Assembly (NCBI RefSeq): GCF_028471905.1
Contig: NZ_CP116902.1
Span: 1,710,501-1,774,500 of the forward strand
Length of the DNA stretch: 64,000 bases
Origin: Aneurinibacillus uraniidurans
GTDB taxonomy: Bacteria; Bacillota; Bacilli; Aneurinibacillales; Aneurinibacillaceae
Direction: 5' to 3'
In this document: in pieces, positions 17,430 to 59,535 of the stretch
Layout: each line of letters starts with the position of its first letter
How positions within the stretch are numbered: position 1 is the first letter of the stretch
Program-made: the position numbers and the translations under genes
Notes under the pieces: generated by a model
The model's input: only the letters and a program-made list of their open reading frames with translations
Databases searched by the model: none
What the model was told of the DNA's origin: nothing

Positions 17430-18725
17430 TTATTCTTCTTGTGATTCCTCAGGTTCAAGGAACAGTAGCTTTGTCGCTTCTTCATAAGCAAATAATTCTG
17501 CATAACGTCCCCAATCAATCGTGATATCTAATTGATGTTCAGCTTCTTCTGTACCAAAGTGCTGTTTATAAATCTCATTGAAAAATTCTCTCGGCATTTT
17601 ATTGTTAGACTTTGATTGGAGGGTCCATAAAATCTTTTCCATCATAGGTACATGTTCAAGTACCTGCCGTTTAAAAATATCTTTCCGTTCTAATACGTTT
17701 GCCTCTGCAAACTGATGACCGATAGGGGTCAAATCAATATCCCCCTGCTGCACATTTGCCAACCCCAGTAACCTTGTCGCTTCAACAATATGTAAAAAGT
17801 CTTCTAGGTTTAAACTGAATTGATCGGCCAATTTATACAGATCAGCTGTATTTCCTAAGTCATCCAATAACTCGATAAATCCGGTAAGCGCGCCAGAGGG
17901 AGCTTCAGGGATCGGCTGCAGTTTCTTTTTCTGCGTGTCAGAAACAATGACGGGCTTAGTCTCTCTGTGTGTTAAGATCGAATAAATTTTATCAACTAAT
18001 TCGGTAAAGTGTGGATCTTGCTTTTCTCGCCAATGACTTAATGTAATTGGGATATCCGCAATGATTCGTGCAGGATCACGAGATAGTACGACAGCTCGAT
18101 CGGACATATATACAGCTTCCTCAATACTATGAGTCACCATGATAATGGATTTGGTTGGAATTTTTTTCTCCATCCAAAGTTCGAGCAAATCCCGTTTCAA
18201 ATTTTCCGCCGTCAATACATCCAGAGCTGAGAAAGGTTCATCCATGAGTAAAATATCTGGTTCCATCGCCAAAGCGCGCCCGATCCCAACCCTCTGTCTC
18301 ATCCCACCGGACAACTCCTTCGGATAAGCACCCTTAAAGCCATCTAGTCCCACCATATCAATGATTTCTAGCGCCCTTCGTTCTTTTTCTTCGTCAAGTA
18401 GAGATTTATGTTCGAGCCCTACTTTTACATTCTCTAATACAGTCAACCACGGAAAAAGAGCAAATGACTGGAATACCATGCTAACGCCTGGATTTGTTCC
18501 TTGAATTGGTACACCATTGTAAGAAACAGAGCCTTGTGTCGGAGCAATCAATCCAGCAATGATTCGAAGTAAGGTTGACTTTCCTGAACCAGACGGTCCA
18601 AGAATGGATACAAATTCACCTTCAGCAATTTTAAGATTGATATTTTCTAAGATCGTTACATTTGCTGTGTTAGATACATCATATTTTTTTGTCACTTGAT
18701 TTACATCAACCAATATATTTTTCAT
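17430..18725 (-). CDS. ABC transporter ATP-binding protein with AAA-associated C-terminal domain
   Basis: 431 residues from ATG 18725, after ATAGGGTGA; an earlier in-frame ATG at 18743 overlaps the permease gene end. The N-terminal nucleotide-binding domain (about 1-235) is of the nitrate/sulfonate/taurine type, with Walker A GPSGSGKST, signature LSGGMRQR and Walker B ILLMDEPF. The C-terminal 150 residues (GFIELLDDLGNTADLYKLADQ onward) match the 'AAA-associated' domain found in ATPases that pair with duplicated permeases. It works with the permease encoded upstream. No substrate-binding protein gene is adjacent. Confidence 0.85.
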   Translation of the reverse strand: MKNILVDVNQVTKKYDVSNTANVTILENINLKIAEGEFVSILGPSGSGKSTLLRIIAGLIAPTQGSVSYNGVPIQGTNPGVSMVFQSFALFPWLTVLENVKVGLEHKSLLDEEKERRALEIIDMVGLDGFKGAYPKELSGGMRQRVGIGRALAMEPDILLMDEPFSALDVLTAENLKRDLLELWMEKKIPTKSIIMVTHSIEEAVYMSDRAVVLSRDPARIIADIPITLSHWREKQDPHFTELVDKIYSILTHRETKPVIVSDTQKKKLQPIPEAPSGALTGFIELLDDLGNTADLYKLADQFSLNLEDFLHIVEATRLLGLANVQQGDIDLTPIGHQFAEANVLERKDIFKRQVLEHVPMMEKILWTLQSKSNNKMPREFFNEIYKQHFGTEEAEHQLDITIDWGRYAELFAYEEATKLLFLEPEESQEE

Positions 18726-18735
18726 GTGCTTCACC

Positions 18736-20463
18736 CTATCCAATGTGATATTTCTTTTCGGCTAGCGTATAAAGTTTTCTCCAGAAAAGACGGTTTATCA
18801 CTACAACCAAAATGGCCATCACCATAATTCCCCAGATGATTTGTGGCCAATTTCCGTTCGTTGTAGCCTGAGTGATAAAGGAGCCTAAACCGGTTGCTTG
18901 TAAAGTGTGATCTTTCCATGAAACCATTTCTGAAACAATACTTGCATTCCATGCTCCACCGCTTGCTGTAATTCCTCCTGTAATTAAATAAGGGAATACG
19001 CCGGGAAGAATCAGTTTTTTCCATGTTTGCAGTCGTGTTAGTCGTAAAACTTTCCCAGCTTCACGTAGATCGGATGGAATTGCCATAGCCCCTGCAATAA
19101 CATTAAACAAAATGTACCATTGGGTTCCGAGCATCATCAGCGGAATCGCGCCTATTTCCATATTGATTCCATATTTGATATAGAGAATTGTCAAAAATGG
19201 AAATGTCATATTGGCCGGGAAAGAAGCTAAAATCTGCACAATGGGTTGGGCGATCCGTGCGAGCTTCGGATGAAAGCCAATCATGACACCTACAGGCAAG
19301 GTCCATAAGATTCCTAACAGAGTTGCAACGAACACACGGCCTGCTGTTAATAGTCCGAACCATATAACTTTTAGAAGCTCCGATACAGATAGCTTACTGA
19401 TTTCCAAGATTCCTTCGTACACGTACTTTGCAATAAAAATGCCCACTACGATTCCAATTAGCCATTTGATCATTGGTGTAAGCTTTGAAAATTGTTTTTG
19501 CTGCTGCTTTACTTTGTTTGTTTTTGCTGTAATTCGGACAATCCAGTTATGAATATACGATTTACACGTACGCATGATATATTGTAAAAATCGCGCACGG
19601 CGGATGATGTTATATAACCAGGAAGTTGTAATGTCATTTGCTTCTGTTTGTTCGTTTTTAAATTTTTGCGACCAGGCTACGAGCGGACGCCAGAATAGTT
19701 GATCAACTACGAGAATCATGATGACCATGGTGAGGATCGCATAAAAAATTGCAAAAATATTCCCCTGATCGACCGCAGTTGCCATATAGGATCCGATTCC
19801 TGGGAGATGAATATCTTGATTCAGGACGGTGATCGATTCGCTAGCAGCGAGGAAAAACCATCCTCCTCCAAATGACATCATGCTGTTCCAAACAAGTCCA
19901 ATCATCGAATAAGGAACTTCCAGCTTGGTGAAGCGAGCCCAGCTCCCCAATTTATTTATTTTGGCTGCTTCTTGCAGATCATGAGGAATCGTAGATAATG
20001 AATGATAAAAGCTAAACGTCATATTCCAAACTTGCCCAGTAAATATCGCAAAGATAGAAGCGCATTCTACACCTAATAAACTGCCGGGAAAGAGCGACAT
20101 AAACCCGATCACGGTCACAGATAAGAAACCAAGTACCGGTACGGACTGCAAAATATCAATCGCAGGAATCATAATTTTTTCAGCCGTTCGGTTGAATGCT
20201 GCAATCCGTCCATAAATGAACGTAAACAATAAAGAAGCTGCAAAGGCGATAAACATGCGAAGCAATGATCTGCCTGCATAATAGGGCAGATAACTCGGGT
20301 CTAAATTAATTTTAGGATGTTGTATGGTTGAGAAAGGGACACGCATTCCGGCCCCCAATTTTAAAATAGAAAACAGAACAGAAAAAATAGAAATAATAAC
20401 AAATAAATCCGCCCAACCGAACTTTTTATTTTCTTCAAATGAAGAGAATAAATTTATTTTCAT
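18736..20463 (-). CDS. Duplicated (fused) ABC transporter permease
   Basis: 575 residues from ATG 20463, directly after AGGAGGGAG. Two binding-protein-dependent transport permease halves are fused: the first has the EAA loop DLQEAAKINKLGSWARFTKLEVPY (here split for length) near residue 190, the second AIPSDLREAGKVLRLTRLQTW near 500. Each half has about five or six membrane spans, separated by a charged linker (residues about 280-330). This is the duplicated 'anion transport' permease class. The gene is read from a long leader with an M-box, so magnesium or another divalent ion is a possible substrate or regulator (inference). Confidence 0.85.
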   Translation of the reverse strand: MKINLFSSFEENKKFGWADLFVIISIFSVLFSILKLGAGMRVPFSTIQHPKINLDPSYLPYYAGRSLLRMFIAFAASLLFTFIYGRIAAFNRTAEKIMIPAIDILQSVPVLGFLSVTVIGFMSLFPGSLLGVECASIFAIFTGQVWNMTFSFYHSLSTIPHDLQEAAKINKLGSWARFTKLEVPYSMIGLVWNSMMSFGGGWFFLAASESITVLNQDIHLPGIGSYMATAVDQGNIFAIFYAILTMVIMILVVDQLFWRPLVAWSQKFKNEQTEANDITTSWLYNIIRRARFLQYIMRTCKSYIHNWIVRITAKTNKVKQQQKQFSKLTPMIKWLIGIVVGIFIAKYVYEGILEISKLSVSELLKVIWFGLLTAGRVFVATLLGILWTLPVGVMIGFHPKLARIAQPIVQILASFPANMTFPFLTILYIKYGINMEIGAIPLMMLGTQWYILFNVIAGAMAIPSDLREAGKVLRLTRLQTWKKLILPGVFPYLITGGITASGGAWNASIVSEMVSWKDHTLQATGLGSFITQATTNGNWPQIIWGIMVMAILVVVINRLFWRKLYTLAEKKYHIG

Positions 20464-20492
20464 AATAACTCCCTCCTGTCTATACACAGCAT

Positions 20493-20522
20493 AAAAAAGC
20501 TCTCCTGATGATAGGAGAGCTT
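20493..20522 (-). terminator. Leader terminator just before the permease ribosome site
   Basis: On the minus strand AAGCTCTCCT pairs with AGGAGAGCTT and is followed by seven Ts, 30 bases before the permease ATG. As it sits inside the leader it is a candidate regulated terminator. Confidence 0.75.
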
Positions 20523-20534
20523 GAATAAAACAGA

Positions 20535-20622
20535 CTTCTGATTTTTACCTTTTCACACGAATGTAGCCACTACCATATCCCGCCCTACAGGTGAACATGG
20601 AAATAGTGGCAAAAAACAGAAG
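20535..20622 (-). promoter_or_regulatory. Structured leader RNA with possible pseudoknot, class not recognised
   Basis: On the minus strand CTTCTG-TTTTT pairs with AAAAA-CAGAAG. Inside it GCCACTA pairs with TAGTGGC, and CCAT with ATGG. The inner loop carries TTCAC, which can pair with GTGAA in the 3' joining strand. An alternative pairing, TTCAC/TGTAG with CTACA/GTGAA, excludes the GCCACTA stem. The geometry suggests a switch; no known riboswitch consensus was matched. Confidence 0.45.
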
Positions 20623-20716
20623 CGTGAAGAGAGGATAGAAATCTTGCTTTCCCATTACATAAGATATGTATACTAGGCTTTACTTGTTCAAATACAAGTC
20701 GACTACTACTATCCAT
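20585..20716 (-). CDS. 43-codon leader ORF between M-box terminator and permease
   Basis: ATG 20716 follows a very strong ribosome site, AAGGGGGG, at 9-base spacing. The 43-residue product is not hydrophobic. Its last 13 residues, HASVFCHYFHVHL, hold four His and one Cys, and the stop codon lies inside the loop of the leader hairpin. This looks like a regulatory leader peptide whose translation could choose between alternative hairpins before the 20493-20522 terminator. It could also be a real small protein or a chance ORF over structured RNA. Confidence 0.45.
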   Translation of the reverse strand: MDSSSRLVFEQVKPSIHILCNGKARFLSSLHASVFCHYFHVHL

Positions 20717-20741
20717 TTCCAGTATCCCCCCTTAAAAAATA

Positions 20742-20768
20742 AAAAACCCTGCTCAGTATGAGAGGGTA
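20742..20768 (-). terminator. M-box expression-platform terminator
   Basis: On the minus strand ACCCTCTCA and TGAGCAGGGT form an imperfect stem followed by a run of Ts, right after the M-box aptamer. A second inverted repeat, AACAATAC/GTATTGTT (20777-20798), lies between. Confidence 0.75.
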
Positions 20769-20798
20769 GCATAAATAACAATACATATACGTATTGTT

Positions 20799-20959
20799 GC
20801 TCCCCCTAGTAAAGCTTTGGCACTATACAACGTAGAGAAATGTGGTTCTCAGCCACCTTAAAGAACGCCTTAAGCCGACGATCCCTGTTCTACCGATTGG
20901 CATCTTTCGATGTTTCCCGGCAGTGGCCTATGTTTGTATAGGAACCTCACCTAACGAGG
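20799..20959 (-). ncRNA. M-box (ykoK leader) magnesium riboswitch
   Basis: Reading the minus strand, the conserved M-box segments occur in order: CGTTAGGTGAGGTTCC, a P2-like CACTGCC, ATCGAAAGATGCCAAT, a GGCTTAAGGCG segment, and AGTGCCAAAGCTTTAC near the 3' end. These match the known ykoK/mgtE leader consensus closely. The element is followed by a terminator, so high magnesium should stop transcription. It lies downstream of the adh gene on the same strand, but has its own promoter-like TATAAT. The regulated genes are the 43-codon ORF and the ABC permease/ATPase pair. Confidence 0.92.
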
Positions 20960-20961
20960 AC

Positions 20962-20990
20962 ATTATATCCATTCACAAATATACTCCTAA
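20962..20990 (-). promoter_or_regulatory. Promoter of the M-box leader
   Basis: On the minus strand TTAGGA, 17-bp spacer, TATAAT; transcription would start just before the M-box. Confidence 0.5.
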
Positions 20991-21019
20991 AACAGAATGC
21001 TGTAAAGAATCTCTTTACA

Positions 21020-59297: not shown

Positions 59298-59345
59298 ACA
59301 AAATATCTATAAAATAACTGAATTATAATAAATCCTCATCATCAT

Positions 59346-59535
59346 GGTGGGGTAGAGGTCGCGGCTTTTATGAGTAGGACAGACGAGATGGGAGAACATC
59401 GAAGACGCTGTGTGAAAGGAGAAGCTGCCGAAGTTTGCACGTGTATTCTCCAACGTGCGGATTGGGGCTGTTTCCGAATAGGGGCAGAACTGTCACCTTT
59501 TGCTGTCCGGCAAAAGGTGGGGTGCTATCTTCATG
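59346..59535 (+). ncRNA. Lysine riboswitch (L-box)
   Basis: Conserved L-box segments occur in order: GGTAGAGGTCGCG, TATGAGTA, GAAAGGAGAAGCTGCCGAAG, GGGGCAGAACTGTCACC, and GGTGGGGTGCTATC closing the first stem against GGTAGAGG. A terminator follows. High lysine should stop transcription of lysP. Confidence 0.92.

Follow-up and report, generated by a model that had tools for sequence, protein, structure and literature searches.

A recurrent linkage of the M-box magnesium riboswitch to an ABC permease-ATPase pair in Bacillota, and leader ORFs that suggest a second checkpoint

What does an ABC permease-ATPase pair do behind a magnesium riboswitch, and how is it controlled there? The question is raised by a locus in a 64,000 nucleotide stretch of the Aneurinibacillus uraniidurans genome (NZ_CP116902.1, positions 1,710,501 to 1,774,500 of the forward strand), which we call the window. 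The initial annotation, made from the sequence alone, had described an M-box on the minus strand that ends at a terminator and is followed by a duplicated permease and its ATPase, with no substrate-binding protein. These features were all recovered (Table 1). The M-box matches RF00380 over its full length (1-169), scoring 149.6 bits where the gathering cut-off is 44 (E 4.6e-34), and the permease contains two BPD_transp_1 stretches. The ATPase gene (18725-17430) lies beyond the interval originally annotated. The pair adjoins no binding-protein gene in the window, its neighbours being of other families, and the locus is flanked by genes for an iron-type alcohol dehydrogenase and a MocR-type regulator. 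We re-set gene starts with a heuristic.

Table 1. Features of the M-box/ABC transporter locus, in window coordinates
Feature	Position	Strand	Basis or remark
Promoter-like site before the M-box	20978..21006	-	TTTACA and TATATT, 17 nt apart; agrees with the consensus only, no more than chance would give in this region
M-box magnesium riboswitch aptamer (RF00380)	20795..20965	-	149.6 bits, full length
T1, M-box expression-platform terminator, hairpin and T-run	20735..20767	-	hairpin z -1.5
Shine-Dalgarno AAGGGGGG of the leader ORF	20733-20726	-	sequence
Leader ORF, 43 codons and stop, start MDSSSRLVFEQ	20585..20716	-	sequence; ribosome-binding site
Segment B, leader-ORF end, can pair with the ORF start region	20586..20624	-	approximate ends; -20.7 kcal/mol
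T2, second intrinsic terminator, just 5' of the permease ribosome-binding site	20491..20522	-	hairpin z -4.5
Fused duplicated type I ABC permease, 575 aa, ATG at 20463	18736..20463	-	two BPD_transp_1 stretches
ABC ATPase	17430..18725	-	domain matches: ABC_tran and C-terminal AAA_assoc_C (PF09821)

Two elements between the M-box and the permease were missing from the initial annotation, namely the leader ORF and T2. Two intrinsic terminators separate the aptamer from the permease gene. T1 (hairpin 20767-20746, with its T-run) is modest and absent from the list produced by the terminator scan. T2 (hairpin 20522-20497) is strong, and its stem pairs are each kept in 6-8 of 9 aligned leaders. On the minus strand between M-box and permease we found no promoter, with a scan that yields about as many sites as shuffled sequence does. 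A second known RNA family in the spacer was considered and rejected, as matches were sub-threshold only (for example Phe_leader, 34.7 bits versus 55). RNAalifold on nine Bacilli leaders gave a weak consensus in which net covariation support was absent (covariation term +0.31). Elsewhere the window holds a lysine riboswitch (59345-59535, plus strand, 113.4 bits), and the source genome has a second M-box in front of CorA, whose leader, judged by eye, contains no acidic leader ORF.

The permease and ATPase have the features of a type I ABC importer of the NitT/TauT-like kind: BPD_transp_1 twice, an ABC_tran partner and a CmpB/NrtB fold. The nearest solved chains by sequence are NrtB and CmpB, from nitrate and bicarbonate importers. 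The fused permease alone was folded and compared (mean pLDDT of the predicted model 83.7). The fold matches listed for it are led by the nitrate/bicarbonate importer group, with CmpB (9ua1_B) the best (Z 21.2, rmsd 2.8, 236 aligned), and both halves match the fused ferric importer permease 9j4r_A (Z 20.4, rmsd 4.6, 419 aligned). The predicted fold says that this is an importer-type ABC permease; it does not tell the cargo. The NCBIfam equivalog cut-offs for nitrate, taurine and sulfonate transport were not reached, the best being ntrB with 82.2 bits versus 209.05. We take the window permease to be COG4986. Conserved acidic residues were considered as a clue to the substrate and set aside: three are invariant in the permease (D103, E209 and E512), but Glu residues of this sort are general to the permease class.

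The source genome has one match to the permease. Around 83 loci of the family, a clustering of 743 neighbouring ORFs gave large clusters for the permease and the ATPase only. A conserved third gene was rejected: the largest other cluster covers 7/83 loci and consists mostly of antisense ORFs, and five clusters of 4 follow. A substrate-binding protein was thus found in the operon neither among the window neighbours nor as a recurrent cluster in this survey, which worked by clustering and not by a gene-by-gene search for binding-protein domains; one may be encoded elsewhere in the genome. In nine M-box-linked members with permeases 38-40% identical to that of the window, the next ORF has 249-258 residues, and the one that was tested is an ABC ATPase without AAA_assoc_C.

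The linkage of M-box and permease recurs widely. Of 299 genomes sampled evenly across the phylum, 18 contain the permease family (E <= 1e-60), and the M-box search of the same sample gave 114 match rows in 104 genomes, under the stricter filters used for searches over more than 40 genomes, by which weak matches can be lost. In 13 of the 18 members, the source genome included, the aligned permease stretch begins 146-332 nt behind an M-box of the same strand. The linked members include ones that are just 38-40% identical in the permease; in the more distant members the first 40-60 residues or so fall outside the alignment, which makes the real gap shorter. Among the five unlinked members, two have an M-box elsewhere (G245, G172), two have no M-box match (G204, G222) and one has its permease at a contig edge (G305). 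Each of the 12 linked genomes besides the source has, among the matches listed, no M-box other than the one before the ABC pair (12/12). Rfam scans, which covered 39 of 82 loci (L004, L005 and 37 of another 80), place an M-box upstream of the permease in 18 of 31 Bacillota loci, and Neobacillus, Gordonibacillus, Paenibacillus, Sporolactobacillus, Pelosinus, Propionispira, Lucifera and Pectinatus are among the linked genera. We presume the assignment of genera to Bacillota to be right. As none of the eight loci outside Bacillota had an M-box in these scans, the M-box may be a lineage-specific graft onto the family.

This recurrence bears on the simplest objection, that the linkage is accidental, the M-box being that of a lost gene and T2 an independent terminator. 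The genes upstream vary, and in some close relatives (L033, L040, L041) no M-box reaches the gathering score, as an accident would have it. Yet 13 of the 18 members in the phylum sample, and 18 of the 31 Bacillota loci scanned, carry an M-box close by on the same strand, which makes this reading highly improbable, and we reject it in the main. The initial annotation had proposed to look for the same arrangement in other genomes, and the outcome it named as refuting, a linkage found only here, did not occur. One of the close relatives, L033 (Ectobacillus panaciterrae), has a permease 92% identical to that of the window and has no M-box at gathering score; the start of the leader ORF is gone and T2 is kept. 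This is perhaps a natural loss of the switch.

What usually stands behind an M-box was examined in the DNA downstream of 110 of the 114 match rows, the other four being the source genome's two and two fragmentary matches. Classed by BLAST against four references, the first gene is MgtE in 60 cases, CorA in 18, the ABC permease in 12, MgtA in 8 and unmatched in 12. The ABC permease is the third commonest recognised M-box target, after MgtE and CorA. One unmatched case is an Nramp gene (G172), and in six more a matched magnesium gene is second in line (L138, L183, L216, L217, L219, L235). That the ABC pair belongs to the magnesium response, as initially proposed, is well supported by the 13/18 linkage and by its position in a slot held elsewhere by MgtE, CorA or MgtA. 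Some further M-box loci are worth recording. In L275 and L293, of the window's genus, a gene whose start looks RodA/FtsW-like by eye lies some 0.3-0.4 kb behind the M-box, and L295 (G455:C3:349678-350100) has tandem M-boxes on one strand, about 100 nt apart.

From sequence evidence, the ABC pair likely imports Mg2+. A rival possibility is that it imports another cargo useful when Mg2+ is scarce, such as a polyamine, an organic anion or another metal. Importers of nitrate, bicarbonate, taurine and sulfonate are relatives of the permease family, the fused ferric-ion permease 9j4r_A is among the fold matches, and M-boxes also precede genes of unknown function, for example those of two DUF1003 proteins (L288, L294). 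Set against this are the 86 of 110 first genes behind M-boxes that match MgtE, CorA or MgtA, and the linked genome G079, in which none of CorA, MgtE and MgtA exceeds the cut-off. We therefore regard a cargo other than Mg2+ as rather unlikely. Among 20 permease-bearing genomes, G222 likewise has none of the three over cut-off. G079 is 92% complete and has its M-box linked to the permease, while G222 is 97% complete and has no M-box match; Nramp-family matches exceed the cut-off in both (74.7 and 199.8 bits). Since 12 of the 13 linked genomes also have CorA, the pair is rarely the sole route: it could be the main importer in a few genomes and an addition in most.

Magnesium genes also occur near a few other copies of the permease, though this evidence is thin. 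They are CorA at L037, MgtA at L063 and MgtC at L092 and, as identified by BLAST, at L085, so that among the 83 loci four have a CorA, MgtA or MgtC neighbour; two more have an Nramp neighbour, and three weaker P-type ATPase matches (23-27% identical) were not counted. At L063 (Fischerella thermalis) the permease is followed after about 1 kb by MgtA (1302.8 bits), and no ATPase ORF was found there.

The leader ORF of the window is not an isolated case. In relatives, ORFs in the spacers before the ABC pair start MDSSSR, MDSDSS, MDCDGN and the like, and leader ORFs of similar design occur behind the M-boxes of MgtE, CorA and MgtA. For counting, the ORF of each spacer was picked by ribosome-binding energy, blind to its residues, with at least 8 codons and a penalty of 1 kcal for GTG or TTG starts; spacers were 90-480 nt long and candidates had -6 kcal/mol or better. 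An ORF passing this rule was found in 96 of 100 M-box spacers, versus a mean of 37.6 in 40 shuffled sets. At residue 2, 60 of the 96 have Asp and 69 have Asp or Glu (Asp in shuffles: 3% on average, 10.5% at most), counts to be read in the knowledge that visual reading of ABC spacers, and then of an all-class listing, had brought the Asp pattern to light before the rule was fixed. By target, Asp is at residue 2 in 17/20 ABC, 25/52 MgtE, 5/8 MgtA and 13/16 CorA leaders. When the ABC leaders are taken out, Asp stands at this residue in 43 of 76 and Asp or Glu in 52. With family labels transferred by hand, at least one such ORF is present in 29 of 40 families with a testable spacer and in the other 11 there is none.

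A second set was drawn from the window's class. It comprises 70 of 101 match rows, or 69 loci, one with two M-boxes; omitted are 24 unfetched rows and seven from the source genome, first-set genomes or ABC copies already used (G153, G258, G306, G009, one of G004). Two loci of the second set are from G004, whose ABC leader belongs to the first set. A target was recognised at 49 of the 69 loci, which gave 43 testable spacers and 36 ORFs under the same rule and limits. Asp is at residue 2 in 19 of the 36 and Asp or Glu in 25 (shuffles: mean 0.85 of 13.9), and when repeats of residues 2-7 are dropped the count is 19/30. At the 20 loci with no target recognised by the four references, five were tested further and gave three Nramp and two DUF1003 genes. 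Leaders of SAM riboswitches, used as a control with ORFs again chosen by ribosome-binding energy (30 spacers, shorter on the whole), have Asp at residue 2 in 0/13 ORFs and Asp or Glu in 1/13. Permeases without an M-box (48 loci) show the pattern in 3/29 ORFs, two of which (L040, L052) look like relics.

The acidic/proline-rich N-terminus is strong in M-box leaders as a group and weak in the window's ORF, which has a single acidic residue, Asp2, among residues 2-8. ABC leaders average 1.8 Asp, Glu or Pro residues in this stretch versus 3.1 in CorA leaders. Some ABC leaders lack such an ORF: in the clade with 38-40% identity the nine linked leaders, whose spacers measure 0-66 nt, contain none, and at the second-set M-box/ABC loci L247, L291 and L292, where one spacer alone is of testable length, we found no acidic leader ORF.

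The start region of the leader ORF (A) can pair with a segment near the ORF end (B); the analyses of this pairing prefer or require ORFs with Asp or Glu at residue 2. In 45 of 94 leaders no more than 5 of 100 shuffles equal the A:B pairing. When A was paired with the B segments of other leaders (83 leaders of the two sets whose acidic ORF stops ahead of the gene), its own B had a median rank of 8.5% and was in the best 5% in 36/83 (Wilcoxon p 1.6e-9, with leaders that are not independent). In the window the pairing is not significant taken alone, as 17 of 100 shuffles are as good and its rank is 14%, and L037 and L038 show the opposite, most foreign segments pairing better there than their own ORF-end segment. 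From ORF stop to gene start the median distance is 38 nt. We also considered a B:C antiterminator hairpin behind the ORF, with the same preference for acidic ORFs, and set it aside, since 5 or fewer of 100 shuffles are as good in just 13/53 leaders.

The ORF might be only a translation-coupling or RNA-structure device that senses nothing, with GAY after the start codon kept for pairing. The tendency of start regions to pair with ORF ends would put the start nucleotides under RNA constraint, and the window's own ORF is poorly acidic. What speaks against it is that the enrichment in Asp and Pro follows the reading frame. Over residues 2-8, Asp accounts for 19.5% in frame versus 3.3% and 1.5% in the other frames, and Pro 10.9% versus 3.0% and 6.4%. 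The codons are mixed (GAC 36, GAT 24; CCT 40, CCG 19, CCC 12, CCA 2) and the enrichment fades after residue 8. A purely structural role is a real possibility, if one that we doubt. The leader ORFs and the A:B pairing recall enterobacterial MgtL and MgtQ, and they suggest a second, translation-based checkpoint behind M-boxes.

We consider it probable, with some reservation, that the locus is a low-magnesium response operon in which an M-box and a leader-ORF screen control ABC import of Mg2+ or of a solute that carries or replaces it. From the sequence and from what the family is known for, the M-box would fold around Mg2+ so that T1 forms, and a fall in Mg2+ would allow read-through. The leader ORF, with its Asp codon 2 and its start-end pairing ahead of T2, might then screen the transcript again: by analogy with MgtL and MgtQ, early ribosome drop-off at low Mg2+ would leave the RNA in an 'on' fold. 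Finally, the permease and ATPase would act as a type I ABC importer with no binding protein in the operon, for Mg2+ or a Mg2+-bearing or Mg2+-replacing solute.

Parts of this scheme are familiar. Behind the M-box (ykoK, RF00380) of MgtE, CorA, MgtA and NrmT regulons there is the same aptamer and terminator logic with a transporter following; the window differs in its target, an ABC permease-ATPase pair. It is established for the family that the M-box acts on an intrinsic terminator, and M-box linkage led to the proof of Mg2+ transport by an Nramp relative; M-boxes before such Nramp genes are reported mostly from Clostridia and Deltaproteobacteria (PMC4072509). In our second set, three genomes of the window's class (L249, L261, L297) have an M-box directly before Nramp-family genes. 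MgtL works through a Rho-dependent terminator, and we know of no M-box in the mgtA leader. MgtL is described as a leader ORF of mgtA with an acidic/proline N-terminus, at which ribosome drop-off at low Mg2+ turns the gene on (PMC11282234); the likeness lies in a leader ORF upstream of a known or candidate Mg2+ transporter, with the acidic/proline start seen in M-box leaders as a group, while in the window the ORF has more codons and fewer acidic residues and is followed by an intrinsic terminator. In Salmonella mgtCBRU, mgtQ has Asp at codon 2, works through alternative RNA stems and controls a Mg2+ transporter, but it has 8 codons, lies between two genes and controls translation, in a PhoP-driven operon whose description in that source includes no M-box (PMC8092293). 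The M. tuberculosis pe20 leader resembles ours in short ORFs behind an M-box, with SD/anti-SD pairing; it differs in being a translational platform with Rho and a mycobacteria-specific uORF2 peptide, and the passages on it describe no acidic-residue mechanism (PMC12810186).

The link of M-box and ABC transporter itself has one precedent, in B. breve, which we take to belong to another phylum than the window's organism. The link is already published there, briefly: an M-box stands in the 5' UTR of Bbr_0406-07, an ABC transporter with a COG4986 permease, and the authors suggest metal-ion homeostasis (PMC5746004). The lines devoted to it contain no leader ORF, conservation or claim of Mg2+ import (PMC5746004). 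In the relevant passages of the open-licence literature, most subscription papers lying outside it, we saw the ABC link for B. breve only and no transport test, and no report of acidic leader ORFs behind Bacillota M-boxes.

It is quite possible, and we put it forward tentatively, that M-box leaders of Bacillota are commonly two-step magnesium sensors, an aptamer followed by an end-pairing ORF with an Asp/Pro start that senses ribosome stability at low Mg2+, and that the window's version guards a new ABC magnesium importer. The passage of a review that names the classes of Mg2+ transporters does not list ABC transporters among them, and the term 'ABC transporter' has no occurrence there (PMC9276622). 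Should the pair indeed carry Mg2+, the bacterial magnesium importers listed in PMC9276622 and PMC4072509 would gain an ABC class. And if the leader ORFs work in this way, the M-box, well studied as it is, would have a downstream partner sensor that follows the logic of MgtL and MgtQ.
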